NCBI GenBank assembly: GCA_947446645.1
Contig: CANFHA010000003.1
Span: 1 to 64,000 of the forward strand
Direction: 5' to 3'
Length of the DNA: 64,000 nucleotides
DNA from: Chitinophagaceae bacterium
GTDB lineage: Bacteria; Bacteroidota; Bacteroidia; Chitinophagales; Chitinophagaceae
Part shown: in pieces, positions 40,550-56,521 of the stretch
Numbering within the stretch: position 1 is the stretch's first letter
Layout of the letters: each line of letters starts with the position of its first letter
Made by a program: the position numbers and the translations under genes
The notes under the pieces: model-generated
Database searches by the model: none
Told to the model about the DNA's origin: nothing
The model's input: only the letters and a program-made list of their open reading frames with translations

Positions 40550-41590
40550 ATGTCGGCAGTTTTAATAGTTGCATTGGTAATTCTGGTATTCGTGGTGATC
40601 TACCAGGTAGGTAAAGCCAGCGAATATGCGTTGGTGATACGCGGAGAAGAAAAGGTAAAAGCACAGGCCAACCGCGTTGTTGCATTCCTGCTGCTGCTGT
40701 TGTTCCCGCTCGGTTGCTGGGGCATCTGGTATTGTAACTCCATCTTTATGGACAGGATGCTGCCCGTTGCTGCCTGTAAGACAGGTGTGAACTACGACTC
40801 CATGTTCAATGTAACTGTGCTTGTTACCGGTATCGTGTTCTTCCTTACCCAGGGTGTTCTTTTCTGGTTTTGCTTCAAATTCCAGGCTACAGAAAAGCGT
40901 ACATCATTCTTCTTTGCGCACAACAACAAGCTGGAGCTTATATGGACAACAATCCCGGCTATTGCAATGGCAGCGCTTGTAGCTATCGGTCTTCGTAACT
41001 GGTTTGATGTTACTTCACCTGCTCCACCGGATGCTACCGTTGTAGAAGTTATGGGCAAGCAGTTCAACTGGGTTATACGCTATCCCGGTAAAGACAACGA
41101 ATTGGGAAAGCGTGATTTCCGTAAGATCAATGACGCAAATAACATCATGGGCCTTGATTGGAACGATCCGCACAACATGGATGATGTTATTGCGCAGAAC
41201 GGTGAGTTGCACGTTGTTGTAAACAAGCCCGTTAAGCTGCTCATTGGCTCGCGCGATGTGATACATGATGTGGGTCTGACGCACTTCCGCCTGAAAATGG
41301 ATGCGGTGCCAGGTATTACTACTACACTGTGGTTCACTCCTACCATCACTACTGATTCAATGAAGCTTATTACAAAGAACCCCGATTTCGTTTATGAAAT
41401 ATCGTGTGACCAGATGTGCGGTAAGGGCCACTATTCAATGCGCGGTACTGTAATAGTGCAAACGCAGGCCGACTATGATAAGTGGATGGCAAGCCAGCAG
41501 TCTTACTACGCAGGCAACGCCCCATCTGCTCCCAAAGCCGATACTGCAAAGGCAGCAAACGAAAGTGTAAAAGAAGTAACGATGAAATAA
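40550..41590 (+). CDS. Cytochrome c oxidase subunit II
   Basis: The 346-aa subunit carries the CuA site that takes electrons from cytochrome c: CDQMCGKGHYSM (CxxxCxxxHxxM, near residue 285), with the first His ligand in HDVGLTHFRLKMDAVPG. There is an N-terminal hydrophobic segment (VLIVALVILVFVVIY), followed by the usual two helices of subunit II (FLLLLLFPLGCWGIW; VTVLVTGIVFFLTQGVLFWFCF). No heme c domain is fused, so a separate cytochrome, presumably ActE or a soluble one, delivers the electrons. Direct linkage to actF suggests an ACIII-oxidase supercomplex. Confidence 0.96.
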   Translation: MSAVLIVALVILVFVVIYQVGKASEYALVIRGEEKVKAQANRVVAFLLLLLFPLGCWGIWYCNSIFMDRMLPVAACKTGVNYDSMFNVTVLVTGIVFFLTQGVLFWFCFKFQATEKRTSFFFAHNNKLELIWTTIPAIAMAALVAIGLRNWFDVTSPAPPDATVVEVMGKQFNWVIRYPGKDNELGKRDFRKINDANNIMGLDWNDPHNMDDVIAQNGELHVVVNKPVKLLIGSRDVIHDVGLTHFRLKMDAVPGITTTLWFTPTITTDSMKLITKNPDFVYEISCDQMCGKGHYSMRGTVIVQTQADYDKWMASQQSYYAGNAPSAPKADTAKAANESVKEVTMK

Positions 41591-41624
41591 TCGGCTAAGC
41601 TATTTAGCCACAAAAGTGCAAAAA

Positions 41625-43448
41625 ATGAATAACGAAGGAATTATCATTGACGGACCAAATGTAGCACACGGCGCAGAGTCAGCTACTGATCATCATGGCC
41701 ATGAGCATCATCAACCGCATTTTGTTTGGAAGTATATTTTCAGTCAGGATCACAAGATCATCGCCAGGCAGTTTATGGTTACCGGTATTATCTGGGCGAT
41801 CATAGGCGCATTATTCTCCGTATTTTTCCGTCTGCAGCTTGGTTTCCCTGATTCTACTTTCCCAGTCATGGAAAAATTTCTGGGTGAATGGGCTAAGGGT
41901 GGAAAGCTCTCTCCTGAATTTTATTATGCATTGATAACAATGCACGGTACCATATTGGTATTCTTCGTACTTACAGCTGGACTCAGCGGAACGTTTGCGA
42001 ACCTGCTGATACCTCTGCAGATAGGTGCCCGTGATATGGCGTCGCCTTTTATGAACATGCTGTCCTACTGGTTCTTCTTTGCTGCAAGTATCCTGATGTT
42101 TGTTTCTTTGTTTATTGAAACAGGCCCGGCTTCTGGCGGTTGGACTACTTACCCTCCGTTGAGCGCTCTTAAGGAAGCATCTATGGGGTCAGGTCTGGGT
42201 ATGGATCTTTGGCTTATGGGTATGTCGCTGTTCGTTGTGTCTTCCCTGCTTGGCGGTCTTAACTACATCTCTACTGTACTTAATATGCGTACTACCGGCA
42301 TGACGATGACCCGCCTGCCACTTACAATATGGGCGCTGTTCTTTACAGCCGTGTTGGGTGTACTTTCTTTCCCGGTTCTTTTCTCTGGTGTAGTGCTGCT
42401 GATATTCGACCGCAACTTCGGTACCAGCTTCTACCTGTCAGAAATATTCATTGGCGGAAAGGCATTACCACACGTTGGTGGTTCGGCTATCCTTTACCAG
42501 CACTTATTCTGGTTCCTGGGTCACCCCGAGGTGTATATCATCATGCTTCCGGGAATGGGTATGGCTTCAGAGGTGCTGTCTACGCATAGCCGTAAACCGA
42601 TCTTTGGTTATTTCGCCATGATCATCTCTCTTATCGGTATCACATTGCTGGCGTTCCTGGTTTGGGCGCACCATATGTTCGTTACTGGTATGAGTCCGTT
42701 CCTGGGTTCTATATTCGTACTGCTTACGCTGCTTATCGCCGTGCCATCTGCAGTAAAGGTGTTCAACTGGTTAACAACCATCTGGCGTGGTAACCTGCGT
42801 TTCAATCCGCCTATGTTGTTTGCACTTGGTTTCGTATCTCTGTTTATTTCTGGTGGTCTTACCGGTATTTTCCTTGGTAACTCTGCGCTCGACATTCACC
42901 TGCATGATACTTACTTCGTTGTCGCTCACTTCCATATAGTAATGGGTGTATCAGCGTTCTTCGGTATGTTTGCCGGTGCATACCACTGGTTCCCTAAGAT
43001 GTTTGGCCGGTTTATGAATAATACGCTGGGCTATATCCACTTCTTTATTACGTTCGCGGGTTCTTATCTTATCTTCTGGCCTATGCACTACGAAGGTATT
43101 GCAGGTATGCCACGCCGCTACTATGACTTCTCAGCCTGGGAATCTTTCAAACACTTCCAGGGTGTAAACAGCTTCATCAGCATCGTGTCTATCATTGTAT
43201 TCTTTGCACAGCTGTTGTTTGTGTTTAACTTCTTCGTCAGCATCTGGCGCGGCCGTAAAATGACTACATTGAATCCATGGGGTTCTACTACACTTGAGTG
43301 GACTACACCTATCAACCCCGGTCACGGTAACTGGATAGGTGAAATACCAGAAGTTCACCGTTGGCCTTATGACTATCGTGATGATGGTCATGGTGGCGAC
43401 TTCATCCCACAAACAACGCCATTAAGGCCGGGTGAAGAATCACATTAA
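41625..43448 (+). CDS. Cytochrome c oxidase subunit I
   Basis: Subunit I holds the heme-copper site where oxygen is reduced. ATG 41625 is preferred to the GTG at 41616. Visible motifs are the heme a ligand in TMHGTILVFF, the CuB and cross-linked Tyr motif WFLGHPEVYIIMLPG near residue 290, the CuB ligands in VWAHHMFVTGMSP near 340, and the heme ligand pair HDTYFVVAHFHIVMG near 425. A His-rich N-terminal tail (DHHGHEHHQPH) precedes the first helix. At about 607 aa it is of normal length for Bacteroidota. Subunits III and IV are not in the window. Confidence 0.97.
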   Translation: MNNEGIIIDGPNVAHGAESATDHHGHEHHQPHFVWKYIFSQDHKIIARQFMVTGIIWAIIGALFSVFFRLQLGFPDSTFPVMEKFLGEWAKGGKLSPEFYYALITMHGTILVFFVLTAGLSGTFANLLIPLQIGARDMASPFMNMLSYWFFFAASILMFVSLFIETGPASGGWTTYPPLSALKEASMGSGLGMDLWLMGMSLFVVSSLLGGLNYISTVLNMRTTGMTMTRLPLTIWALFFTAVLGVLSFPVLFSGVVLLIFDRNFGTSFYLSEIFIGGKALPHVGGSAILYQHLFWFLGHPEVYIIMLPGMGMASEVLSTHSRKPIFGYFAMIISLIGITLLAFLVWAHHMFVTGMSPFLGSIFVLLTLLIAVPSAVKVFNWLTTIWRGNLRFNPPMLFALGFVSLFISGGLTGIFLGNSALDIHLHDTYFVVAHFHIVMGVSAFFGMFAGAYHWFPKMFGRFMNNTLGYIHFFITFAGSYLIFWPMHYEGIAGMPRRYYDFSAWESFKHFQGVNSFISIVSIIVFFAQLLFVFNFFVSIWRGRKMTTLNPWGSTTLEWTTPINPGHGNWIGEIPEVHRWPYDYRDDGHGGDFIPQTTPLRPGEESH

Positions 43449-43471
43449 TAGTACTGATTACAATCTTATAC

Positions 43472-43498
43472 AAGGCGCTCCCCGTGAGCGCCTTTTTT
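43472..43498 (+). terminator. Terminator of the act-cox operon
   Basis: AAGGCGCT-CCCCGTG-AGCGCC with a following TTTTTT forms a strong GC-rich hairpin 24 bp after the coxA stop. Confidence 0.9.
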
Positions 43499-43932
43499 GT
43501 ATGATATCAAATATGCTGAGGAATTGCAAGTTGCTACGGCCTTAAGACTAATACCATTTGGACATCGAAATCAAGCTGCCATTTCAATAGCCCCGTTTTT
43601 AAGCCGGCGCAGAAGCGACAACCAATACGGCTTTAGCCCAAATGCGCACCGCGTGCCTTTAAAATCTACTGAGTGTAATACAGAGTGGGCCTAAAGCTGC
43701 ATTGGCTTGGTCATTTGCTTTGCCTCATGCTTCTTTGCGTGAAATGTCTCGTGCCGGACTATATTGTCCAGTGGGTATTGCCGGGCAGAAAAATGTGCCG
43801 CGGGCAAGCAAACGCAGTTACGTTGCTTGCTCTATTCGCAAGTAAGCGTATGGGAAATTGATGATATTGAGAAGCTATGCTCTTTCCTTTTCAATTACTG
43901 CAGCGGCAGGTTAGGAGGGGTAGGAGCGGTCT
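43499..43932 (+). pseudogene. Gene-free stretch with a possible degraded coding remnant
   Basis: About 430 bp with no intact gene. One plus-strand frame without a start (43663-43845) reads quite like a protein, including LREMSRAGLYCPVGIAG, and a second frame continues as LYSQVSVWEIDDIEKL, as if a gene had suffered frameshifts. I cannot name the family. The track ORFs at 43497 and 43764 are fragments of this. No transposase motif or terminal repeat is visible. Confidence 0.25.
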
Positions 43933-44436
43933 CTACTTTCCATCTTCTCCGTGCACCATCACACTAACCCCGTTTTTGGGTTCTTTCTTAGCTGGAGTAT
44001 AGGAGCTGCCTGCAGGTGTTACCGCGCCGCTGATCTTAATAAAAGGGTATGCGCCTGGTGCCGCGTTGGTAGTGAGGAGTATATCGTGTTGAAAAGAGCC
44101 CACGTCACCCTTAGCAGTATAGGTCACAGTGAGGTATGCTTTCTTACCCGGCTTTACTGGTTTGTCCGGCCATTTGCATTTCACCTTTGCCGACTCACAT
44201 TTCATGCCCGCTATTATCAGGGGCACATTGCCGTCATTAACTATTTCAAACTGGTAAGGGATGGACTCGCCGAGGGGAATGCCGCCAAAATCATGAACCT
44301 GGTCATGATTCACAAATGAAATGCCTGGTCTGTTAACACTGGCAATGCTGTTGGCGCTGGTAGGATTTTGTGCCTGGGCAAATAACTTGCAGCCGCACAA
44401 TAATAGTATACAAGCGGTGTAAATCGCTTTTTTCAT
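43933..44436 (-). CDS. Secreted DUF1573 protein
   Basis: ATG 44436 opens a signal peptide with a possible lipobox (ACILLLCGCKLFAQ). The 167-aa protein holds one DUF1573 Ig-like domain: DFGGIPLGESIPYQFEIVNDGNVPLIIAGMK, then PGKKAYLTVTYTAKGDVGSFQHDILLTTNAA. These domains bind or present surfaces in periplasmic assemblies, but specific roles are unknown. It follows the ECF sigma gene by 59 bp on the same strand and may be expressed with it. Confidence 0.85.
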   Translation of the reverse strand: MKKAIYTACILLLCGCKLFAQAQNPTSANSIASVNRPGISFVNHDQVHDFGGIPLGESIPYQFEIVNDGNVPLIIAGMKCESAKVKCKWPDKPVKPGKKAYLTVTYTAKGDVGSFQHDILLTTNAAPGAYPFIKISGAVTPAGSSYTPAKKEPKNGVSVMVHGEDGK

Positions 44437-44495
44437 AGCCTGTAATTTTAATAGCAAGATAAGAATTTTGTAAAGTACAGGGCTATAATAAACTG

Positions 44496-45080
44496 TTATA
44501 AAATTCGAGCATGATGACGGGAAAACGATGAACCAGTATGTAACGCAAATTCGAAATCATCTCTCAGCAATTGCAGCGCGCGACGCATTCTTGTCTTAAC
44601 TGTTCCCAGTGGGGTCTTGAAAGTTTTTGCAACTTCTTCCATAGTATGACCCTTGTAGTATACAAGATAAACGAGGTTGCCAAGTACTGGAGACAATGCC
44701 AATAAGCGTTTTGAGAGGCATATCTGGTCAGTCTTCACTTCGGTCACTTGTCTAGAAAGTTCCAGGCTGTTTTCTGCTGTATGTGTCTTAGTTCTCATAA
44801 TGCTTACACTGCACTTAAAATAATCGAGTGCCTTATTTTTTGCAATGTTGCGCATCCACGTGTACAGGCTGCCTTTTTTGGGGTCGTATTGATTTATGTT
44901 AAGCCATATACTTACAAATGAATCCTGCAAGAGATCCTCAGCTATGTGGCTATCATCAGTATAAGAATTGATGACAATTAATAGTGCGGTGCTGTAATTG
45001 CAATACAGGTAGTTAAATGCCTGCTGGCAGCCAACTTTTATATCGTTTACCAATTCGTCTTGGTTATAGCCACTATTCAT
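44496..45080 (-). CDS. ECF-type RNA polymerase sigma factor
   Basis: The 194-aa protein has sigma-70 region 2 (ALLIVINSYTDDSHIAEDLLQDSFVSIWLN, then GSLYTWMRNIAKNKALDYFK) and region 4 (LLALSPVLGNLVYLVYYKGHTMEEVAKTFKTPLGTVKTRMRRALQLL). No anti-sigma factor follows; the downstream gene is DUF1573. ECF factors with this region 4.2 signature in Bacteroidota often respond to envelope or oxidative signals. The divergent DUF4331 operon is the natural candidate target, an inference from position. Confidence 0.93.
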   Translation of the reverse strand: MNSGYNQDELVNDIKVGCQQAFNYLYCNYSTALLIVINSYTDDSHIAEDLLQDSFVSIWLNINQYDPKKGSLYTWMRNIAKNKALDYFKCSVSIMRTKTHTAENSLELSRQVTEVKTDQICLSKRLLALSPVLGNLVYLVYYKGHTMEEVAKTFKTPLGTVKTRMRRALQLLRDDFEFALHTGSSFSRHHARIL

Positions 45081-45327
45081 CAGGTAGTATTTTCCGAGAG
45101 ACTAAAATTATCGTGCCAATGGAATATCGACATACTGTTGAACTATTTCCACAAAGGAATCGGGCCGCTTATGAAATATTATATGACTGAATACCAATGC
45201 CGGTAAGGGTTTCAGAAGGATCCATCTTTTTATTTTCGCTTTTTTATTTTGGATGGACAATCTAAACGCAAATTTTGGTCGTAGGTTATAGAGCTAACAT
45301 TATTGTTAAAAACTTAAATCACCATGT

Positions 45328-47091
45328 ATGCGAAAGATGAATTACTTTAAAAGACTGCGCTTATTACCTGTCTTTTTAGGAGCTATGGCGCTTGGTAGCT
45401 CGGCCTATGCCTCGAGCCACCGCGAAGCTCCATTGATTTCAAATGATCCACAGGCCGACAACACCGATCTGTATGTATTCCGAAGCCCTGATGACCCGAA
45501 TACGGTAACCATCATTGCTAATTACATACCTTTTGAATCTCCGGAAGGAGGGCCAAACTACTACACCTTCGGTACTAATGTGCGTTATGAGATACACATT
45601 AAGAACCAGGCAAGCGGTACCACAGACGATATTACTTATCGTTTCACATTCTCCCGCACAGACCAGGACACAACGACGTTTTTCAACATCCGCCTCGGTC
45701 AGCAAAATCTGAAGATGAACTATACCTGCCAGAAAAGCCTGGATGGTGGTGCTACATGGACCACTATCTATTCAGGTGGTGTAGTACCTCCAAACAACAT
45801 TGGCCCGCGCTCTATACAGAACGCAACAGTAGGCCTCGGAGCTCCTAACTATATGAGCCTTATGACAGCGGCTATCGCCACTGCATCATCTGGTGAAAAG
45901 TTGTTTTGTGGTCCTGTAGACGATCCTTTCTTCGTTGATCTCGCAGGTGCATTTGATCTGGGTAGCTTCCGTCCCGGTGGGCTGAGTACAGCCAATACAC
46001 CCAAAGATGCGCTGGCACGTTTCAATTGCCACACTATCGCTATTAAAGTGCCGATCAGTATGCTGCAGCGCAGTGGCCTCAGTGTATCGTCTGCTACTTC
46101 TATCCTCGATAGCCGTTTTGTAATAGGTGTTTGGGCTTCAGCAAGTCGCCCACAGATCAAAACCATAACTGCAAGCAATCCTGATGTGTACACAGGTGCC
46201 TGGGTGCAGGTGTCGCGCATAGGTATGCCCCTCACTAACGAGGTGATTATACCCGTAGGCATGAAGGACTACTGGAATTCGCAGAACCCTGCTAACGACG
46301 TGCAGTTCGCTAAATTCTTCAGCAATCCTGAGCTGGCGCTTTATATGGACAACTCTAAATTCGGCGGCGCAGTGCCTGCACTGAATGCACTCCGTATCCA
46401 GTCAAGCTCACTCCAGTCTTTTGACTTCCGCAATACGCACAAGGGATTATGGTCACTGAAAGGATCTTCTGCAGTTGCAGGTACAGCACTTGATAATGCT
46501 GCATTCGGCAATGTATTATTGCCCGATTCCACAAGCCCTCGCGCTGTAGATATCCTGCCGATATTCTTTACCGGCGTGCCGAATCTTGCTCCTTACCAGC
46601 TGGCTACAGGCAAGCCTACAGGCAATCCCCTGGCACATGGCAAGCCGTTTATCAACAACTTCCTGCCTACGCTGGGAGATATGCTGCGCCTGAACATGGC
46701 AGTGCCGGTAACATCGCGCACCGATCCTGCTTTTAGCTCAGAAGGTATCATTGCTGCTGCTGTCCTTGGTCTTACCAACAGCACCTACAATGCAGATACT
46801 ATGCTGCAGGCTATTCCTAACATGGACGGATTCCCTAACGGCCGCAGGCTGGAAGATGATGTAACAACCATAGAGCTACAGGCTGTGGGTGGCGTAGCAC
46901 TGGCCGCAATTGGCCTTTGGTACGATGACTATACAGTCGGCGTCACAGCTTCACCTGTTACTACTAACCTGGGCAATGTGCTGGGCTTCAATGCCGGTAT
47001 CACGCATAATGATACCACGTTCCAGTCAGCCTTCCCATATGTGCAGCAGCCATGGAGAGGTTACGATCACACATTGCAGGCAAGGTTCTAA
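45328..47091 (+). CDS. DUF4331 protein, secreted
   Basis: The 587-aa protein begins with a signal peptide (LLPVFLGAMALGSSAYASS) and then the hallmark SSHREAPLISNDPQADNTDLYVF. The DUF4331 domain runs to the C-terminus; there is no sorting tail. ATG 45328 is used, though ATG 45337 is possible. Function is unknown; the SHREAP motif, rich in His, Glu and Asp, suggests metal binding. The neighbouring second copy is clearly a paralogue. The 247 bp upstream, shared with the divergent sigma gene, hold its promoter region, without an evident TAnnTTTG box, which would suit ECF control. Confidence 0.88.
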   Translation: MRKMNYFKRLRLLPVFLGAMALGSSAYASSHREAPLISNDPQADNTDLYVFRSPDDPNTVTIIANYIPFESPEGGPNYYTFGTNVRYEIHIKNQASGTTDDITYRFTFSRTDQDTTTFFNIRLGQQNLKMNYTCQKSLDGGATWTTIYSGGVVPPNNIGPRSIQNATVGLGAPNYMSLMTAAIATASSGEKLFCGPVDDPFFVDLAGAFDLGSFRPGGLSTANTPKDALARFNCHTIAIKVPISMLQRSGLSVSSATSILDSRFVIGVWASASRPQIKTITASNPDVYTGAWVQVSRIGMPLTNEVIIPVGMKDYWNSQNPANDVQFAKFFSNPELALYMDNSKFGGAVPALNALRIQSSSLQSFDFRNTHKGLWSLKGSSAVAGTALDNAAFGNVLLPDSTSPRAVDILPIFFTGVPNLAPYQLATGKPTGNPLAHGKPFINNFLPTLGDMLRLNMAVPVTSRTDPAFSSEGIIAAAVLGLTNSTYNADTMLQAIPNMDGFPNGRRLEDDVTTIELQAVGGVALAAIGLWYDDYTVGVTASPVTTNLGNVLGFNAGITHNDTTFQSAFPYVQQPWRGYDHTLQARF

Positions 47092-47121
47092 TCTTACACC
47101 ATCAAAACAAAACCAAAGAAC

Positions 47122-49161
47122 ATGAAAAATATTATAAACAAAATATTGGTGGCAGGGCTTATATGCCTCTTGCCGCAGGTGCAGGCCACGGCCTCATCGC
47201 ACCGCGAAGCTCCGCTTATTTCAAATGATCCGCTGGCAGACAACACGGACCTCTATGTGTTCAGGAGCCCATGCGACAGCAGCAAAATTGTGATCATTGC
47301 CAACTACATTCCTTTTGAGCATCCTGCGGGAGGGCCCAACTGGTACAACTTTGGCCAGAATATCCGATACGAGATACACATCAAGAACAAGACCACAACT
47401 ACAACGGATGACATTACGTACCGCTTCACGTTCACACAGGTGAATGAGGATACAACGACGTTCTTCAACATCCGCCTGGGCAAGCAAAACATAAAAGATT
47501 TGTATACCTGCCAGCGTAGTTTGGATGGTGGCCTCACCTGGACTACTATAAAGTCAAATGGTATAGTACCTCCGCCAAACATAGGCCCACGCTCTATACA
47601 GAGCGCAGTAGGCCTGGGTGCAGCATCATACGATGCGCTCATGATGGCTGCAGTTACCACAGCATCTACTGGCGAAAAATTATTTGCCGGCCCTGTAGAT
47701 GATCCTTTCTTTGTAGATCTTGGTGGCGCGTTTGATGTAGGTGGTTTCCGTGCCGCCGGCCGCGATGGTCTTGCTAAGTTCAACTGTCACTCCATAGTGT
47801 TGGAGATACCTATCTCTACACTGCAGAAGACAGGCCTTACAACAGCATCTGCTACCAGCATTCTCGATCCTAATTTCGTGATCGGTGTATGGGCATCTGC
47901 AAGCAGGCAGTCCATCACTACACTTAGCACTACAGGCGGCCAGCCTGCTACAGCAGGAGCCTGGGTGCAGGTATCGCGCATAGGTATGCCGCTTACTAAT
48001 GAAGTGGTAATACCTATTGGTGCAAAAGACCGCTGGAATGGTACTAACCCGTATACAGGCGATATGGCTTATCAGCCATATTTCGAAAATCCTGAGCTGG
48101 CACTATACATGGATACATCAGCCTTTGCGCTCGCTGTTCCAGGTCTGTCTGCATTGCGTATACAGGCTAATTCACTGGGTTCTTTCGACTTCAGGAATAC
48201 ACATCAGGGCTTGTTCCCGGTACGTGGCACATTAGGCGCAGTAGGTACAGCATTTGATGAGATTACAGGCTACCCCAGTTTCCTGTTGCCTGATAACCAC
48301 AGCCCACGTGCGGTGGATCTGCTGCCTATATTCTACACAGGTGTTCCAAACCTTAATCCATACCAGTTGGCTACAGGCAAAACACCGGGCAACCCGCTTA
48401 CTCCGGGTAAGCCATTCATCAACAACTTCCTGCCTACTTTCTGCGATATGATTCGCCTGAACATGGCGGTACCTGTTACATCGCGTACAGATCCTAAGTT
48501 CAGCTCGCTCGGCCTCGTTAAGGCTGCCGTGCTCGGTCTCACAGATCCTGCTTACAATACCACTACTACATTGCAGTTCATACCTAACATGGATGGTTTC
48601 CCTAATGGCCGCAGGCTGGAGGATGATGTAACCACCATTGAGTTGCAGGCAGTATCTGGCGTTGTACTCGCAGCCATAGGCCTGTGGTACGATGACTATA
48701 GCGGCACAGGTAGCCCTGTAACGCCACAGCTGTCTGGTGTACTTGGTTTCAACGCAGGTGTTACCCGCAACGATACTACGTTCAAGGCATGCTTCCCTTA
48801 CCTGCAGGATCCATGGCCAGGCTTTACCGGCTCACAGTACTCAGGCCCGGCAAGCAGCCAGACTCCTCTGGAGATAGCAAGCCTGCCGCTTACAGCACCG
48901 GTGTTTGTGATGAATGCCTATCCTAATCCGTTCACATCGCAGGTTTCATTCCGTTACAAAATGGATGTAGATGGCAAAGTGAGCATACAGGTGATGGACA
49001 TCAATGGCCGCATAGTAAATAGCATAAACGAAGGCTACAAAACTACCGGTGATTATACCACGCAATGGAATGCAGGCAGCGTACCAGCCGGCAACTACAT
49101 AGCTGTGTTATCTATCAACGGTCAGCAGATACAAACGATCAAGTTGGTTAAGGCTAACTAA
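47122..49161 (+). CDS. DUF4331 protein with type IX secretion C-terminal tail
   Basis: This 679-aa paralogue of the preceding gene has a signal peptide (ILVAGLICLLPQVQATAS), the same SSHREAPLISNDPLADNTDLYVF start, and DUF4331 through about residue 570. It then adds a T9SS type A sorting domain: NAYPNPFTSQVSFRYKM, VSIQVMDINGRIVNSI, GNYIAVLSINGQQIQTIKLVK. The tail predicts export across the outer membrane and surface attachment or release, whereas its neighbour should stay periplasmic. The genes are 30 bp apart and form an operon. A terminator follows at 49190. Confidence 0.9.
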   Translation: MKNIINKILVAGLICLLPQVQATASSHREAPLISNDPLADNTDLYVFRSPCDSSKIVIIANYIPFEHPAGGPNWYNFGQNIRYEIHIKNKTTTTTDDITYRFTFTQVNEDTTTFFNIRLGKQNIKDLYTCQRSLDGGLTWTTIKSNGIVPPPNIGPRSIQSAVGLGAASYDALMMAAVTTASTGEKLFAGPVDDPFFVDLGGAFDVGGFRAAGRDGLAKFNCHSIVLEIPISTLQKTGLTTASATSILDPNFVIGVWASASRQSITTLSTTGGQPATAGAWVQVSRIGMPLTNEVVIPIGAKDRWNGTNPYTGDMAYQPYFENPELALYMDTSAFALAVPGLSALRIQANSLGSFDFRNTHQGLFPVRGTLGAVGTAFDEITGYPSFLLPDNHSPRAVDLLPIFYTGVPNLNPYQLATGKTPGNPLTPGKPFINNFLPTFCDMIRLNMAVPVTSRTDPKFSSLGLVKAAVLGLTDPAYNTTTTLQFIPNMDGFPNGRRLEDDVTTIELQAVSGVVLAAIGLWYDDYSGTGSPVTPQLSGVLGFNAGVTRNDTTFKACFPYLQDPWPGFTGSQYSGPASSQTPLEIASLPLTAPVFVMNAYPNPFTSQVSFRYKMDVDGKVSIQVMDINGRIVNSINEGYKTTGDYTTQWNAGSVPAGNYIAVLSINGQQIQTIKLVKAN

Positions 49162-49189
49162 TATACCGGATAGAATGGTTAAATATCAG

Positions 49190-49222
49190 GCGGATGGGCT
49201 TTTTAGGTCATCCGCTTTTTTA
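49190..49222 (+). terminator. Terminator after the second DUF4331 gene
   Basis: GCGGATG and CATCCGC form a stem around a roughly 12-base loop, followed by seven Ts. Read-through into the TPR gene remains possible. Confidence 0.75.
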
Positions 49223-49295
49223 TGTAAAAGAAATTGTTTGTAAAAAGAACATTCTTCATATCCCACTCGTATATGGTAGTACAAACCAGACCTCC

Positions 49296-50642
49296 ATGAA
49301 AAAAATTACACTTTTAATGCTGACATTACTGCTAAGCTGCAGTACATTATTTTTTACTTCCTGCTCAGAAAGGAAAGATGGCCTGCCGCAGCTGCTGGAG
49401 CGCAAAAAGGTAATGGGCCCCGAAGATGAAAAGGCAACTATAACGACCAGCTACAACAAAGCCGTAGAAGCACTGAAGCAAAACCCGGACGATCTGAAAC
49501 AGTATGTAACGCTGGCATCCGTGTTTATTTCTGAAGGCCGCATCACCGGCAACAACAGCTACTACAGCAATTCAGCTGTAAAAATGCTGAACAAAGTAAC
49601 AGAAAGCAATACCGCAAATAAGGATCTGGTATTCCAGGCGCTGAGTCTTAAGTCAGCTGTGCTGCTCAACATGCACCAGTTTAAAGATGCCCTCGACGTG
49701 GCTAAGCAGGGTGTGGCGCTCAATGACTACAATGCAGGCATTTTTGGCGCGCTGGTAGATGCTAACGTGGAGCTTGGCAACTACGATGCCGCAGTTAAAG
49801 ATTGTGACCGCATGATGACCATCCGTCCCGATCTGCGCTCTTACTCACGCGCCTCTTACCTGCGCCAGATATATGGCCAGAACCAGGGTGCAATGGAAGC
49901 TATGCACATGGCTGTGGATGCAGGCATGCCCGGAGCTGAGAGCACAGAATGGGCAAGGACAAAGCTCGGTGATCTTTACCTTAACACCGGTAATCTCGAT
50001 AGCGCATCTATCCTGTATCGGTCATCGCTTGTTTACCGTCCCAATTACCCGTATGCGCTTATGGGTATGGCGCTGGTAGAAAAGTCAAGAAAAAATTACG
50101 ACCAGGCAATCACCTATACACGCAGCGCCATAGCGGTGCTGAGTGAAGCTGCATTTGTTTCCACGCTTGCAGACTTATACGAGCTGAAGGGCGACGCAGC
50201 AAAAGCTAAAGACGCACGCAATGATGTGGTAGCCCTGCTGGAAGAAAGCCAGAAGGACGAGCCGGCAGACGCACTGGTAAAGCACAACGTGAGCCGCGAA
50301 ATGGCTACGGCTTACCTCAATGCCGGTAACCTGGACAAGGCGCTGCAATATGCAAAAACCGACCTGGCTATGCGCCCCGAAAATATTGATGCCAATGAGC
50401 TCATAGCCTGGGTATACTACCTGAAAGGCGACTATGCAAATGCGAAGACCCATGCGGACAAGATGATGGCTACCAAAACGCAAAATGCGGGCTCGCTGTA
50501 CAAGGCCGGTGTTATCTACTCAAGTGCGGGTGAACTGGCGCAGGGAAATGACCTCCTTAAAAACGCTATGGCAATCAATCCATTCATGGACCAGCGCCTC
50601 ATAAGTCAATCTAAATCTCCGGTTGTTGTAAATAAGGGATAA
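49296..50642 (+). CDS. TPR lipoprotein
   Basis: ATG 49296 is preferred to the track's upstream start because it opens a lipoprotein signal (LTLLLSCSTLFFTSCSE, Cys near residue 22). The roughly 448-aa protein contains TPR units, for example VDANVELGNYDAAVKDCDRMMTIRPDL, KLGDLYLNTGNLDSASILYRSSLVYRPNYPYALM and AWVYYLKGDYANAKTHADKMM. Its stop overlaps the ATG of the HupE-like gene by one base (TAATG), a strong sign of a common function. It is probably an outer- or inner-membrane-bound periplasmic scaffold for the DUF4331/HupE system. Confidence 0.85.
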   Translation: MKKITLLMLTLLLSCSTLFFTSCSERKDGLPQLLERKKVMGPEDEKATITTSYNKAVEALKQNPDDLKQYVTLASVFISEGRITGNNSYYSNSAVKMLNKVTESNTANKDLVFQALSLKSAVLLNMHQFKDALDVAKQGVALNDYNAGIFGALVDANVELGNYDAAVKDCDRMMTIRPDLRSYSRASYLRQIYGQNQGAMEAMHMAVDAGMPGAESTEWARTKLGDLYLNTGNLDSASILYRSSLVYRPNYPYALMGMALVEKSRKNYDQAITYTRSAIAVLSEAAFVSTLADLYELKGDAAKAKDARNDVVALLEESQKDEPADALVKHNVSREMATAYLNAGNLDKALQYAKTDLAMRPENIDANELIAWVYYLKGDYANAKTHADKMMATKTQNAGSLYKAGVIYSSAGELAQGNDLLKNAMAINPFMDQRLISQSKSPVVVNKG

Positions 50643-51298
50643 TGAAAAAGTATTGGATACTTCTTCTTTTGGTGCTGGGCAGTGCGCTTCCCTTATCAGC
50701 CCATGTTATCAACTATGAGCTGGATAAGATGAGCGGTAACACGGTGTTCTGGAAGTATATGCTTATCGGGTTTGAGCACATAATACCGCTTGGCTTCGAT
50801 CATATACTTTTCATCACCTGCGTCTTCTTTCTTAATTCCGATCTTAAGAAGGTTATCATCCAGGCATCTATGTTCACGCTGGCACACAGCATCACCCTGG
50901 GCCTTGCTATGTATGGCATCATCAATCCGCCATCCAATATCATAGAGCCACTTATAGCCTTATCCATCGTTTTTCTGGCTATAGAAAATATGGTGTCTGC
51001 CAGTGTAAGACCATGGCGGCTGGTGATGGTGTTTCTGTTTGGTATGGTGCATGGCATGGGCTTTGCAGGTGCACTATCGCAAATGGGCATGCCGCAATAT
51101 GCATTTGCCACCGCACTTATTAGCTTCAACATAGGTGTGGAGATAGGCCAGCTGTCTATTATCCTGCTGTTATACTTCTTGGTGTCGTCACAGTTTTCAA
51201 AATTCATCTGGTACAGGAAAAGGGTAGTGATACCCGTAAGCGTTGTCATATCGCTGGTAGCTTCCTACTGGACCATTGAGCGCATATTTTTTGTTTAA
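50642..51298 (+). CDS. HupE/UreJ-like membrane protein
   Basis: The 218-aa protein has a signal-like N-terminus ending in SAHVINY and about six transmembrane helices with family motifs: YMLIGFEHIIPLGFDHILFITCVFF, LAHSITLGLAM, and MVHGMGFAGALSQMG. The conserved His residues (FEHIIPLGFDH, LAHS, VHGMGFAG) match the HupE/UreJ group, whose better-studied members move nickel or cobalt. This branch (HupE_UreJ_2-like) is common next to DUF4331 and TPR genes, in my recollection. Metal transport is inferred from the family, not shown here. Confidence 0.85.
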   Translation: MKKYWILLLLVLGSALPLSAHVINYELDKMSGNTVFWKYMLIGFEHIIPLGFDHILFITCVFFLNSDLKKVIIQASMFTLAHSITLGLAMYGIINPPSNIIEPLIALSIVFLAIENMVSASVRPWRLVMVFLFGMVHGMGFAGALSQMGMPQYAFATALISFNIGVEIGQLSIILLLYFLVSSQFSKFIWYRKRVVIPVSVVISLVASYWTIERIFFV

Positions 51299-51477
51299 AA
51301 GTTCCGACGGTTTTATTGCGAATCAAAGCTTCGAACGTGTGGGCCTATATGATTGCATTGAAAAGATATTAATTAAATCCAGTGATCAATACATCTCACT
51401 TATCATCTTCAGGGCACGTTGGTAACTCCATCCAAATTGGAGCAGACACCGGTGTGCCAGTTTTGAAAGATGTATTG

Positions 51478-51855
51478 ATGAAGAAGCTTACGTGGATAGT
51501 TTTCTTTGCCTATGCTTTGCTTATGTTTAAGCCTGTATTGCCTGTTGTATTGGATGCTTTTGCACACACCTTCTGGGAGCAGCAGCATATGCTGGTGGTG
51601 CATGAGGTCAACGGTAAATTTCATGTCCATAATGAATTGGTAAATGCGGTACAACAGTCTGAGAAAGATAAGAAGTCTGTGTCAGGTAAGTTCCAGGTCG
51701 AGGAGTGTATTGCGGTAGCACTGCTTGTTGTATGTATCGCATTAATGCCTCGGTATAGTATAAACCGGTATGCAGTCCTAAATTACTTTTTTCCATTTTG
51801 TTCCTGTGATCTGGAGGCGCCGCCCCCTAGGTTTTTTTACAATCATATATCGTGA
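51478..51855 (+). CDS. Small membrane protein with His-rich segment upstream of the TonB receptor
   Basis: ATG 51478 is chosen over the track start because MKKLTWIVFFAYALLMFKPVLPV is a typical first helix. The 125-aa protein then has AHTFWEQQHMLVVHEVNGKFHVHNEL with five His, a charged middle (QQSEKDKKSVSGK), a second helix (IAVALLVVCIALM) and a PPPRFFYNHIS end. Small proteins of this build are common just before metal-related TonB-dependent receptor genes in Bacteroidota. A periplasmic metal-binding or sensing part is plausible. Family not recognised. Confidence 0.6.
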   Translation: MKKLTWIVFFAYALLMFKPVLPVVLDAFAHTFWEQQHMLVVHEVNGKFHVHNELVNAVQQSEKDKKSVSGKFQVEECIAVALLVVCIALMPRYSINRYAVLNYFFPFCSCDLEAPPPRFFYNHIS

Positions 51856-51941
51856 ATTACGCATTGGCTAGGTGGTATGTAATACCGTCAGGCTGTTTAT
51901 TGCAAGTATTTAACTGATTTATCTGATTAAAAAAACCAATT

Positions 51942-54251
51942 ATGAAAACAAAAATCATACAAAAAATAATCGTTTTGCTATTAATTATGACATCCGCTAT
52001 AGCAGTACATGCCCACACAGGCAGCATACGCGGCATCGTGTATGATGGCAATAGTCACAAGCCGCTGGAAGGCGTAAGCATATACATAAAGGCAATAGAC
52101 CAAAGCGCGGTAACTGACGTGTTCGGGAAATTTTTTCTGAAGAATATAGAACCGGGGCGTTACACGCTGGCTATAAGCCATTTAGGGTACACAAACACAG
52201 ACGAAGTAATAAAAGTAGAAGACGGTATCACTACGGATATCAATTTCAATCTTACTGCCTCGCCGGTGGAGATGAAAGCAGTATCTGTTAATGCAAAGAA
52301 GAATCTTAACCTCAGTTCTGTTAGCGGACTGGATCTTCAGCTGCGCCCGGTAAATAACTCACAAGATCTGCTGCGCCTCGTTCCCGGCCTGTTCACCGCA
52401 CAGCACCAGGGTGGGGGAAAGGCAGAACAAATATTTCTCCGCGGCTTCGATTGTGACCATGGTACCGATGTGAACGTAAGCGTTGACAACATGCCAGTGA
52501 ACATGGTTTCTCATGGTCACGGCCAGGGCTTTGCAGATTCGCACTTTATCATACCGGAATCCGTGCAGGAAGTGGACTACGGCAAAGGTCCTTACCAAAT
52601 GGATAAAGGAGACTTCTGCACCGCCGGCTATGTAGCATTCAAAACAAAGTCCTCGCTGGATAACAGTTTCGTAAAAGTAGATGGAGGGATGTATGATTAT
52701 TTCCGTACTGCCGCAGGTATAAGCTTGCTCAACAGCAAGCAGGACAGCAACGCACACCAGGATGCATACATAATGGGCGAGTATGGCTACAACCGTGGTT
52801 ATTTCGACCTCTCGCAAAACTTCAACAAGTTCAACCTCATCGGCAAGTACACTAATTACATTTCTACCGATAAGATATTTACCCTGACTCTTTCGGGTTT
52901 CAATTCTTTTTGGGATGCATCAGGCCAGATTCCTACCCGCGCAATATCAGAAGGTATTGTAGGACGCTATGGCGGACTGGATCCGGAAAGCGGCAATACA
53001 AGCAGGTACAATCTTAATCTCCAGTACTTCCAGTCTATAAACAGCAACAGCTATTACAAAAGCAACCTGTTTCTTACCTACTACACCTTTAAGCTCTATT
53101 CAGATTTTACCTATTACCTCATGGATTCTGTAAACGGCGACCAGATACGGCAGGCTGAAAAGCGCATCGTGGCCGGATATAATAATGAGTATGCCACCAG
53201 CTACACCTTTGCGAAACTGAAGATGAAAACACAGTTTGGGCTGGGTCTCCGCTACGATGACATTATGAATGACGAGCTCAGCCACACCATAGCCCGGTCC
53301 GTAACCCTCAACACCATAGCCCTTGGCGATGTACATGAGACAAATATCTACGGCTATATAAACCAGTCGGTCTATCTCCTTCCGCAATTGGTGCTGAACT
53401 TCGGTACCCGTTACGATCATTTCATACAGCAGTACGATAATAAGCTGGTGGCCGAGAATACCAACAGTACATTTAACAACGGCATGTTTAGCCCCAAGGC
53501 AGGCCTGTATTACAACTTCGGCAACAACGCCCGTATCTACTATAGCTACGGCACCGGGTTCCATACCAACGACACACGCACACTGGCGCTGGGTCAGCAA
53601 TTCGGAAGCCCTGTAATTGTCAACAACACGATACCCAAAGCATTTTCGCACGACCTGGGTGTAGTGGTTAAGCCCACCAGCAAGTTGCTGCTTTCTGCCG
53701 CCGCATGGCTCATCAACCTGCAGCAGGAGTTTAGCTATATAGGAGACGAGTCTGCCATTGACACCTCAGGTAAGACCCGCCGCTATGGCATAGACTTATC
53801 CGCCCGCTACGAAGTGCTCAAATGGCTTTACCTCGATATAGATGTCAACTATGCGCATGGCCGCTATGCAGACCAGCCTGCAGGAAACAACTACATACCT
53901 CTTGCTCCGGCATTTACATCTATAGGCGGTGCCACAGTTAAGGTTACACGCAACCTCCTTGCCAGCCTGCGTTACCGCCACATGAGCGACCGGCCGGCGA
54001 ACAATGACAACACTCGCACTGCACTCGGCTATACTGTCTATGATGCCGTGCTTAACTATCGCCTGCCGCATTACGAATTTGGTATGCAGGTGCAAAACCT
54101 GTTTAATGTAAAATGGAGCGAAGCACAATTTGATACCGAAACAAGACTGCGATATGCCAATGGCACGCTCGAGCCGCACTCATCTACCGATGTTTGCTTT
54201 ACGCCCGGCATCCCGTTCTTTTTAAAGCTGAGCGCTACGTATAAATTTTGA
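51942..54251 (+). CDS. TonB-dependent receptor, probably for a metal or metal complex
   Basis: The 769-aa outer-membrane receptor has a signal peptide (IVLLLIMTSAIAVHAH), a carboxypeptidase-regulatory-like domain (GSIRGIVYDGNSHKPLEGVSIYI, residues 26-110), a plug (about 120-240) and a 22-strand barrel ending LSATYKF with a terminal Phe. The plug contains an unusual His/Asp-rich loop: RGFDCDHGTDVNVSVDNMPVN, then SHGHGQGFADSHF. Together with the HupE-like and His-rich neighbours this suggests a transition-metal ligand. There is no SusD partner, so it is not a typical glycan system. It lies 86 bp after the small His-rich gene. Confidence 0.92.
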   Translation: MKTKIIQKIIVLLLIMTSAIAVHAHTGSIRGIVYDGNSHKPLEGVSIYIKAIDQSAVTDVFGKFFLKNIEPGRYTLAISHLGYTNTDEVIKVEDGITTDINFNLTASPVEMKAVSVNAKKNLNLSSVSGLDLQLRPVNNSQDLLRLVPGLFTAQHQGGGKAEQIFLRGFDCDHGTDVNVSVDNMPVNMVSHGHGQGFADSHFIIPESVQEVDYGKGPYQMDKGDFCTAGYVAFKTKSSLDNSFVKVDGGMYDYFRTAAGISLLNSKQDSNAHQDAYIMGEYGYNRGYFDLSQNFNKFNLIGKYTNYISTDKIFTLTLSGFNSFWDASGQIPTRAISEGIVGRYGGLDPESGNTSRYNLNLQYFQSINSNSYYKSNLFLTYYTFKLYSDFTYYLMDSVNGDQIRQAEKRIVAGYNNEYATSYTFAKLKMKTQFGLGLRYDDIMNDELSHTIARSVTLNTIALGDVHETNIYGYINQSVYLLPQLVLNFGTRYDHFIQQYDNKLVAENTNSTFNNGMFSPKAGLYYNFGNNARIYYSYGTGFHTNDTRTLALGQQFGSPVIVNNTIPKAFSHDLGVVVKPTSKLLLSAAAWLINLQQEFSYIGDESAIDTSGKTRRYGIDLSARYEVLKWLYLDIDVNYAHGRYADQPAGNNYIPLAPAFTSIGGATVKVTRNLLASLRYRHMSDRPANNDNTRTALGYTVYDAVLNYRLPHYEFGMQVQNLFNVKWSEAQFDTETRLRYANGTLEPHSSTDVCFTPGIPFFLKLSATYKF

Positions 54252-54595
54252 GAGTCTGGTTTGAAATAAAACCCTTCTGCGTTGTCTAATGCGGGAGGGT
54301 ATTTATTTCCACTTTTTAACCGGCAAAATGTATATAAATCTGACTGGCAGCCACACCTTTAGTTTTTCCAATGGTATTTGGGGGGAAGTGAAAATCCAAA
54401 ACAGCCGCTGCATCGTATGTTGCTGTTCAATGTAACAGCCGGTCACTTTTTGTTTAGAATGTCCGGCGGGGAAAGTACCCCACTTGCATTTTCCAATGCG
54501 GGAGGGGCTTCCTTTTTATACCTATCCTTCAATAAATTACCCGGAATTTTTAAGGAGTATCTCGTTCTACCGAATTGAGCTATTAAGCCATTAGG
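54252..54595. other. Gene-free stretch with two related hairpin-like motifs
   Basis: About 345 bp between the receptor and NUDIX genes. AATGCGGGAGGG occurs twice (54288-54299 and 54495-54506), each preceded by a partly complementary C-rich stretch and followed by T-rich sequence, so both may be weak terminators, the first for the receptor gene. An AATGGCTC-type octamer repeat lies at the right end. The 66-aa track ORF here has no protein-like features. Confidence 0.45.
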
Positions 54596-55045
54596 TCATT
54601 GAGCCATTTTCAGTTCATCCTTCAGCACCTGCAGTGCAAAATCCAGCACCTCTTTATGGTCAAATGCCATGGCAGAAATATCCTTAATATTCACCCAGCT
54701 GGCATGCGCAGCATCATCTGCGCCCTTTACGGTGTGGTCTGCGGCGTCTACAAAAGCATAGAATACCACAGATACCGTCCGCCCTCTAGGGTCGCGGCCC
54801 GGCCTGCCAAAGGTGTGTAGTTGCCGCATAGCCTGCAGCCGCATACCGGTTTCTTCCTCCAGCTCGCGCAGGGCACCGGCCTCCAGATCTTCGTCATCTT
54901 CCACAAAACCACCGGGCAAAGCCCACATGCCCTTGTACGGCTCATTGCCCCGCTCTATAAGCAGCACCTGCCATGCCCCGTTGCTCTTGCTCAGCACAAG
55001 CGCATCAGTAGTGAGTTTTATGTTCTGAGGATACAAAAAAGTCAA
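54596..55045 (-). CDS. NUDIX hydrolase with TTG start
   Basis: The 149-aa protein has a complete Nudix box, GGFVEDDEDLEAGALRELEEETGM (GX5EX7REUXEEXGU, near residue 40). It is preceded by WQVLLIERGNEPYKGMWALP, which resembles ADP-ribose or nucleotide-sugar NUDIX proteins and NrtR-like N-terminal domains, although no HTH follows. No ATG is available: an in-frame TAA lies two codons upstream of the TTG at 55045. The start codon itself lies inside a TTTTGAC heptamer array, and the last codons (ATGGCTCAATGA) coincide with the octamer repeat family. Single gene. Confidence 0.88.
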   Translation of the reverse strand: MTFLYPQNIKLTTDALVLSKSNGAWQVLLIERGNEPYKGMWALPGGFVEDDEDLEAGALRELEEETGMRLQAMRQLHTFGRPGRDPRGRTVSVVFYAFVDAADHTVKGADDAAHASWVNIKDISAMAFDHKEVLDFALQVLKDELKMAQ

Positions 55046-55068
55046 AAGTTAAAAGTCAAAATCCAAAA
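55031..55068 (-). repeat. Heptamer repeat at the start of the NUDIX gene
   Basis: Read on the minus strand, TTTTTGGATTTTGACTTTTAACTTTTGACTTTTTT is a run of TTTTGAC-like units that includes the TTG start codon. Confidence 0.75.
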
Positions 55069-55138
55069 ATGAGCCAATTCTTTTCAGGACGCCACACATC
55101 GCTACCATCATGAGAATCCCCCAATCCTAAAATCCTGA

Positions 55139-56521
55139 TCAATGTTTAAACAACCTGAAGATATCCATGCCGTTCGCATACACCATCAGTGTCAGCAGCA
55201 GCACCAGGCCCACAGTGGTAGCCCGCTCCATTACCTTTTCGCTCACCTGCTTGCCGGTTATCATTTCCCAAAGCAGGAAGATCACATAGCCGCCATCCAG
55301 GCCCGGTATGGGCAGCAGGTTCATAAACGCAAGTATGATGGATATAAACGCGGTCAGCATCAGGAACTGGCGCATATCAAATTCTGATGGGAAGATCTTG
55401 CCAAAGCTGATAAGCCCGCCCACGCTCTCATGTGCCTTTATTTCCTTTGAGCCAAACATAAGCTTGAACTGCGCCAGGTAGTTGCCAAACTGTTCAAAGG
55501 TGAAGCTGAATCCCTTTCCTATAGCGCCTATAGGCCCGTAGTGTATCGTGTCAGACTTCAGGTATTTCTTATAGTCCGGCAGTATGCCAAACGCCGAGTC
55601 CTTAGGTATCGTTACCGCTACAGAGTCCAGCACATGGTTCCTCATAAAGCTTATGATTACCGGCTTGCCATAGTTGGCCACCTTCTGCTCTTCAAATTCA
55701 TTGCGGAACCCTGCCGGTTTTCCGTTTATGGCTACTATGCTGTCGCCCACATGTATGTTGGCCCGTGCAGCTATGCTCTTGTTATCTACAGAGTCAGCTA
55801 CCATAGGTATAGCCGGGGCTATAAAGCCACCCTTCTGCATCTTTATCATCTTGCCCACAGTGCCGCGGGGTATGTTCACTACTACATCTTTGCCATCGCG
55901 CACCAGCTCTATAGTGCCTGTCTGGTCCTTGCTGTAGATCATAGCCATAGGTATGCGCTCAAAGCGCTCCACCGGCTTGCCGTCTACCGACTTTATCATA
56001 TCCCCGTCGCGCAGGCCTATGCTGCGGCCCAGGCTGTCCACAGCTATGCCATACTTAGCATTGGCAGTGCGCAGGTACTCCTCACCGTATATGCTAAAGA
56101 CAGCTATATAGATAAGTATAGCCACGATCACATTCACTATTATACCACCCAGCATTATAAACAGGCGCTGGTAAGGCTTTTTGCTGCGGTATTCCCAGGG
56201 CTGCGGTGGCTGGGCCATCTGCTCCTTGTCCATGCTCTCATCCACCATGCCCGCTATCTTCACATAGCCACCCAGCGGAAACCAGCCTATACCATATTCC
56301 GTATCACCCTTCTTCTTTTTAAAGAGTGCAAAATTCAATACCCCCGAAAAAGGGAACAAGAAGTCAAAGAACAGGTAAAACTTCTCCACCCGCGTCTTAA
56401 AAAGCCGCGCAAAGAAAAAATGCCCGAATTCATGTAATGCTATAAGAAGTGATAGTGAAGCGAACAACTGCACCACCTTCACTCCGGTGCCAGACATTAA
56501 TAAGAGGGTATTTAAATGCAT
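55139..56521 (-). CDS. RseP, site-2 metalloprotease (M50)
   Basis: RseP cleaves transmembrane anti-sigma factors and signal-peptide remnants inside the inner membrane. The 460-aa protein has the zinc motif HEFGH (near residue 31), a membrane segment ending NVIVAILIYIAVF, two PDZ-type domains (IGLRDGDMIKSVDGKPVERF and ANIHVGDSIVAINGKPAGF), and the third zinc-site motif NLLPIPGLDGG near residue 405. The length is typical for Bacteroidota. It lies downstream of dxr on the same strand, the conserved dxr-rseP order seen in many bacteria. Confidence 0.95.
   Translation of the reverse strand: MHLNTLLLMSGTGVKVVQLFASLSLLIALHEFGHFFFARLFKTRVEKFYLFFDFLFPFSGVLNFALFKKKKGDTEYGIGWFPLGGYVKIAGMVDESMDKEQMAQPPQPWEYRSKKPYQRLFIMLGGIIVNVIVAILIYIAVFSIYGEEYLRTANAKYGIAVDSLGRSIGLRDGDMIKSVDGKPVERFERIPMAMIYSKDQTGTIELVRDGKDVVVNIPRGTVGKMIKMQKGGFIAPAIPMVADSVDNKSIAARANIHVGDSIVAINGKPAGFRNEFEEQKVANYGKPVIISFMRNHVLDSVAVTIPKDSAFGILPDYKKYLKSDTIHYGPIGAIGKGFSFTFEQFGNYLAQFKLMFGSKEIKAHESVGGLISFGKIFPSEFDMRQFLMLTAFISIILAFMNLLPIPGLDGGYVIFLLWEMITGKQVSEKVMERATTVGLVLLLTLMVYANGMDIFRLFKH

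Follow-up and report, generated by a model that had tools for sequence, protein, structure and literature searches.

A conserved DUF4331-TPR-HupE-TonB operon of Bacteroidota as a candidate envelope route for a transition metal, most likely copper

Relation to described metal systems

Copper acquisition by Gram-negative bacteria is poorly known, and the CrtA TonB transporters have been proposed to provide heme-copper oxidases with copper (PMC12914433, J Biol Chem 2026). HupE/UreJ-2 proteins bearing a histidine at residue 1 (His1) were described in 2025 as "anglerases" (PMC12537917, Nat Commun 2025) in a study that also presents DUF4198 and DUF6702 as secreted metal-binding proteins with a chelating histidine at residue 1. 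In Mycobacterium tuberculosis, SigK-RskA controls mpt70 and mpt83 (PMC7509140). Here we describe an operon in a 64,000-nucleotide stretch (the window: positions 1-64,000, forward strand, contig CANFHA010000003.1, GenBank assembly GCA_947446645.1) of a Chitinophagaceae bacterium, in which two DUF4331 proteins are encoded together with a tetratricopeptide repeat (TPR) lipoprotein, a HupE_UreJ_2 permease, a small protein and a TonB-dependent receptor. The operon joins DUF4331, a large family without a function, to an anglerase-type HupE, a class of TonB receptors and the SigK/RskA family. It is a candidate member of the envelope metal uptake systems, to which it would bring a new type of component.

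The window HupE resembles Ang-1 and Ang-2 (PMC12537917) in being a HupE_UreJ_2 permease with a predicted His1 directly after the signal peptide. DUF4331 operons of Pseudomonadota resemble Ang-1 in having an Ang-like His1 domain of about 160 amino acids before the permease. Unlike the anglerases, the window HupE (218 amino acids) has no distinct Ang domain outside the cytoplasm, its permease domain starting at residue 39, about 18 residues after His1. No DUF4331, TPR or TonB partner of Ang-1 or Ang-2 is mentioned in the sections of that paper used here. Neither the Ang-like domains nor HupE matched a solved structure. DUF4331 itself is like DUF4198 and DUF6702 in being secreted with a predicted amino-terminal chelating histidine, but the histidine is predicted at residue 3. 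The original prediction had been that the locus might be undescribed, and this held within the literature searched, where no mention of DUF4331 was found, but not for the His1-bearing HupE/UreJ-2 proteins.

The Bordetella crtA gene lies near an oxidase operon (PMC12914433), and the window operon likewise lies beside coxB-coxA (cytochrome c oxidase subunits II and I, 40550-43448), just upstream. CrtA is described with two conserved histidines, a PepSY_TM partner and control by CruR, unlike the window receptor, which has five plug histidines, a carboxypeptidase-like amino-terminal domain with a predicted His1, and HupE, DUF4331 and TPR partners. The window receptor matched no solved copper receptor in the PDB, such as OprC, a comparison in which CrtA itself was not aligned directly, and no copper-receptor model of NCBIfam. 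MPT70 and MPT83 are fasciclin-fold proteins, and fasciclin proteins are the classical target class of SigK. A fasciclin gene here shares its promoter with the DUF4331 operon, which resembles the control of mpt70 and mpt83 by SigK-RskA in M. tuberculosis. Unlike the mycobacterial system, the promoter is of the form AAAWCYA/CGTA, the putative regulon includes a DUF4331-TPR-HupE-TonB operon, and no RskA gene adjoins the window sigma gene.

Operon conservation and predicted amino-terminal histidines

Both DUF4331 copies (copy a, 45328-47091; copy b, 47122-49161; forward strand, as for all genes of the operon) matched PF14224 over its full length (positions 1-421 of 421), scoring 430.8 and 402.3 bits where the cut-off is 27, and were 69% identical over 557 residues. 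They are followed by the TPR lipoprotein (49194-50642, start probably at 49296, with a lipobox ending in cysteine), the inner-membrane permease HupE_UreJ_2 (50642-51298; PF13795, 150.2 bits), whose start overlaps the TPR stop by one base (50642), a small secreted or anchored protein of 157 amino acids (51382-51855) and the TonB-dependent receptor (51942-54251; PF13715, PF07715 and PF00593). The genes named beforehand were all intact open reading frames at these positions, and their families scored above the curated cut-offs.

A survey of 248 Bacteroidota genomes found PF14224 in 36 and PF13795 in 71. The order DUF4331a-DUF4331b-TPR-(HupE)-(small)-TonB was kept in about 50 Bacteroidota loci. 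Among 50 named loci for which 6.5 kb or more of downstream sequence was available, twin DUF4331 genes were present in 49, TPR in 48, TonB in 43, HupE in 21, and HupE and TonB together in 17. The operons of Chitinophagaceae relatives included HupE, and the relatives in Dyadobacter, Spirosoma and Larkinella mostly had two DUF4331 genes, TPR and TonB. The TPR family was found at 33 of the 36 DUF4331 loci sampled, with its gene nearly always 3′ of DUF4331. Overlaps between families were counted by hand from the hit tables of the 248 genomes. The TonB plug motif HxHGQGxxD occurred in 34 genomes, of which 19 also had DUF4331 (Fisher p = 4e-10; in 14 the two were adjacent). DUF4331 and HupE occurred together in 24 genomes (p = 3e-7; 8 adjacent). 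The linkage proposed from the single locus was supported, and is far above chance.

The arrangement DUF4331-TPR-HupE/NicO recurred in Pseudomonadota and Actinomycetota. Plasmids of Pseudoalteromonas, Marinobacter, Lichenicola and a Comamonadaceae bacterium carried DUF4331 followed by TPR and HupE, two Streptomycetaceae plasmids carried DUF4331 followed by TPR and a NicO-type "nickel transporter", and a Miltoncostaea plasmid carried DUF4331 followed by TPR. In the flavobacterial loci L048-L066, DUF4331 was split over two adjacent genes and the TPR gene was still next. On four Rhodobacterales plasmids (L148, L153, L159 and L160), DUF4331 lay between an A24 prepilin peptidase gene and type II secretion genes, a layout that looks as if DUF4331 were the cargo of a dedicated type II secretion system. 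A search of viral contigs for DUF4331 gave no match.

The motif NH2-X-X-His, known as the amino-terminal Cu(II)- and Ni(II)-binding (ATCUN) motif, is a tight ligand of both ions, which it binds through its free terminal amine, two main-chain amides and the histidine ring. The sequence SSHREAP was invariant in DUF4331 and began exactly at the predicted signal-peptidase cut. Signal peptides were placed at 45328-45411 in copy a and 47122-47193 in copy b, with SSHREAP at 45412-45432 and 47194-47214. Mature DUF4331 is therefore predicted to start with NH2-Ser-Ser-His, an ATCUN site for Cu(II) or Ni(II). The -3,-1 rule was satisfied directly before SSH in 154 of 155 non-redundant long forms, with alanine at -1 in 148, and was far rarer at the neighbouring positions, except two residues later, where it is trivially satisfied. 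The first half of the split flavobacterial DUF4331 starts with ADHxDAP after the cut (ADH in 13 of 14), again placing histidine at residue 3. SSH followed the cut directly in all eight plasmid homologues of other lineages, and the Marinovum protein has ASH, which is still X-X-His.

Predicted amino-terminal histidines were also found in the two membrane proteins. In HupE, His21 (50702-50704) becomes His1 by predicted cleavage between LSA and HVINYE, and the signal-peptidase rule placed His1 directly after the signal peptide in 29 of 33 relatives (31 of 34 by inspection). In other phyla, the larger proteins of the HupE and NicO families are likewise predicted to start with His1. In the TonB receptor, comparison of amino termini indicated that His25 (52014-52016) becomes His1 by predicted cleavage between VHA and HTGSIRG, and many of its relatives are predicted to start in the same way (HxG[SN]..). 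TonB receptors of Bacteroidota usually start with glutamine, as did 14 of the 53 examined here. A cleavage predictor blind to these motifs placed histidine at +3 in 87 of 111 DUF4331 proteins (78%), at +1 in 17 of 30 HupE proteins (57%) and at +1 in 29 of 53 TonB receptors (55%), against 2-4 (1-2%) at the corresponding positions among 236 control proteins from the same loci. Since a chelating amino-terminal histidine is predicted for proteins at the surface, the outer membrane and the inner membrane alike, the operon probably encodes a metal-catching machine, in agreement with the metal-handling function first proposed from family knowledge.

The two DUF4331 copies differed in their carboxy-terminal ends. 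Copy b had a type A sorting domain of the type IX secretion system (T9SS; Por_Secre_tail, PF18962 and TIGR04183) at about 48919-49152, as did eight of eight other copy-b proteins scanned (seven above the cut-off and one just below). No such tail was found in copy a, whose mature form had 546-568 amino acids in 72 twin loci. The expected division of the pair was therefore upheld, copy b being surface-exposed as judged by its sorting domain and copy a, lacking one, probably periplasmic. The split flavobacterial form had a secreted first half and a lipoprotein second half. In the window and in relatives, copy a often ended in ...ARF, with a terminal phenylalanine as in outer-membrane proteins, though its model was not a barrel. 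An AlphaFold model of mature DUF4331 built from 82 mature sequences had a mean predicted local distance difference test (pLDDT) of 77.5 and a predicted template modelling score of 0.84, with residues 1-9 flexible; a model from 22 similar sequences was discarded (pLDDT 48). The retained model had no match among PDB or viral folds (best probability 0.12 among the PDB matches listed), and the DUF4331 sequence had none among solved structures. Thus no fold-based function is claimed for DUF4331.

The TPR protein was homologous to TPR proteins of Actinomycetota DUF4331 operons (E values 1e-24 and 1e-10), and eight such proteins from three phyla shared an invariant His-x-Phe motif, whose histidine is His161 in the window. 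HupE fitted the PF13795 class by profile and by its conserved H...DH, AHS, HG and E residues, with H46, D53, H54, H82, E102, E115, H137 and E167 invariant in 34 relatives. The small protein had conserved histidines and a carboxy-terminal PPP and belonged to a family of nine with the same operon position, without a Pfam or NCBIfam match. The TonB plug has five histidines and the motif RGFDCDHGTD...SHGHGQGFADSHF(I)IPE (52449-52559), and its histidine and aspartate residues were at least 97% conserved in 64 relatives.

Operon promoter and sigma factors

A search for a shared ECF (extracytoplasmic function) promoter had been proposed, and a common motif was found upstream of DUF4331a. It consisted of AAA[AT]C[CT]A, 14-15 bases and CGTA, and was present in 72 of 88 non-redundant loci. 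In the window it reads CAATCTAA-N12-GTCGTAGG (45258-45285, forward strand), 42 bp 5′ of the DUF4331a start codon. At a score of at least 13 it was found at 72% of DUF4331 loci and at 3.3% of other genes of the same loci; as the motif was trained on these loci, the comparison with the other genes is the fair control. The only other intergenic and well-placed copy found in the genome precedes the gene of a secreted fasciclin protein (G000:C10, L163:1252-1806, reverse strand), 44 bp before the ATG. Taibaiella lutea (L086) has, in succession, SigK, RskA, a fasciclin gene preceded by this same promoter, and the DUF4331 operon. A second, stronger copy of the motif, AAATCCAA-N12-ATCGTATG, was located at 54392-54419, downstream of TonB and with no clear gene after it; it is possibly the promoter of a small RNA or a chance site.

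The sigma gene of the window (44496-45080, reverse strand) is divergent from the operon and encodes an ECF protein for which SigK was the best-scoring NCBIfam model, at 96.9 bits and so below the cut-off of 226. No anti-sigma gene adjoins it. The genome has a single RskA gene, on contig C4, beside a SigK-type sigma paralogue (G000:C4:22384-22908) that is 47% identical to the window sigma. That the ECF gene beside the operon is a conserved part of it was rejected, an ECF gene being present within 4 kb in only 2 of the 50 close-relative loci; action of the sigma factor in trans is more probable. In wider relatives the SigK/RskA pair is a conserved partner, with SigK-type and RskA genes near DUF4331 in 14 of them, and directly upstream of it in Pseudoalteromonas.

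Candidate metal route and competing explanations

We give roughly even chances to the view that the operon encodes the envelope-spanning capture and uptake of a transition metal, most likely Cu(II), from an ECF promoter under SigK/RskA-type control. Transcription would be initiated by a SigK/RskA-type sigma factor. DUF4331b, displayed by the T9SS, would catch the metal at the surface, and the TonB receptor, with its plug rich in histidine and aspartate and its periplasmic His1, would bring the metal, or a chelate of it, across the outer membrane. In the periplasm the metal would be held or passed on by DUF4331a and the TPR lipoprotein, the latter perhaps acting as a scaffold that joins the parts. 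HupE_UreJ_2 would then accept the metal with its amino-terminal histidine at the inner membrane and move it inward; in operons without HupE, the metal may be delivered in the periplasm, or the permease may be encoded elsewhere. A more specific form of this proposal is doubtful. It is a metal relay of a new kind in which each protein of the route, at the surface, outer membrane, periplasm and inner membrane, would hold the metal at its own amino terminus, cleavage creating each site, in at least three phyla and under SigK/RskA-type control.

If correct, the proposal would offer a testable role for DUF4331 and a copper-capture route via surface proteins secreted by type IX (or type II) systems. 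SigK-type sigma factors of bacteria other than mycobacteria would also gain a candidate promoter and function. The amino-terminal Cu(II)/Ni(II) site is a single chemical prediction that can be checked on single purified proteins.

Several observations weigh against the uptake proposal. About half of the operons lack HupE, and some lack TonB. A cut two residues later in DUF4331, after ASS, also fits the -3,-1 rule and would give His1 instead of His3. Against the PDB, the TonB receptor matched nothing beyond CirA and a carboxypeptidase domain, and it had a weak score with the heme receptor model TIGR01785. Genome-wide, the promoter pattern was not enriched (18 matches against 25 in a reversed control), and it was not found in the upstream regions of the sigma genes themselves, giving no sign of their autoregulation through it. 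Which sigma factor reads the promoter is inferred. Copper was chosen partly by exclusion, over three nickel and cobalt functions only, and heme-copper oxidases, found in 32 of 32 DUF4331 genomes, are nearly universal in aerobes.

A rival to uptake is metal sequestration or an envelope-stress system, which we consider unlikely. Here SigK/RskA would sense envelope stress, DUF4331 and fasciclin would buffer surface and periplasmic copper, and HupE would export or redistribute it. Control by SigK/RskA and the fasciclin partner point to an envelope response, and such a stress or buffering role may apply. DUF4331 appears to be secreted by the T9SS or, in Rhodobacterales, lies beside T2SS genes, and some members of the LysE-like clan are exporters. 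The operon, however, contained no gene for an efflux ATPase, CopA or Cus, and the TonB receptor, encoded in 43 of the 50 operons, points to import, for which reason uptake was preferred.

Nickel or cobalt uptake by the same system, as classical HupE/UreJ and NicO proteins suggest, is rather improbable. Permeases for nickel and cobalt occur in the PF13795 and NicO families, the Streptomyces proteins match NicO and carry the annotation "nickel transporter", and ATCUN sites bind Ni(II) too. Among 32 DUF4331 genomes, however, urease was found in only 4, NiFe-hydrogenase above the cut-off in 3 and CobN in 2, these being the three nickel and cobalt functions covered. All three were missing from 24 of the 32, including 23 of 31 other genomes and the window genome itself (98.4% complete). 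An Rfam scan of 43000-56000 detected no nickel or cobalt riboswitch and no other match. His1 domains on HupE/UreJ-2 proteins bind Cu2+ at 74 nM and Ni2+ at 220 nM (PMC12537917). Because the nickel and cobalt enzymes are mostly missing, all 32 genomes have heme-copper oxidase, His1 domains prefer Cu2+ and coxB-coxA lies upstream, copper is the most likely metal, and fits better than the nickel or cobalt that knowledge of HupE had suggested.

It is quite improbable that the operon does not handle metal, the histidine-first ends being incidental to a surface layer or to another ligand such as heme or a polymer. The weak TIGR01785 score could be read in this way, and the DUF4331 model, without a structural match in the PDB, leaves room for other activities. 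Against this, three unrelated families in one operon independently place a predicted chelating histidine at the amino terminus, at 50- to 80-fold over the control for HupE and TonB. A chance neighbourhood without functional unity can be dismissed for DUF4331-TPR-TonB/HupE, since the gene order is kept across genera and phyla and one promoter is shared, even though adjacency of the ECF gene is not conserved.

Two further features of the neighbourhood were noted. In two close relatives (L067 and L069) the DUF4331 gene lies directly 3′ of coxA, without a sigma gene. A DUF1573 protein is encoded downstream of the window sigma gene (43933-44457, reverse strand), and in L069 a 49%-identical relative of it lies beyond the TonB gene.

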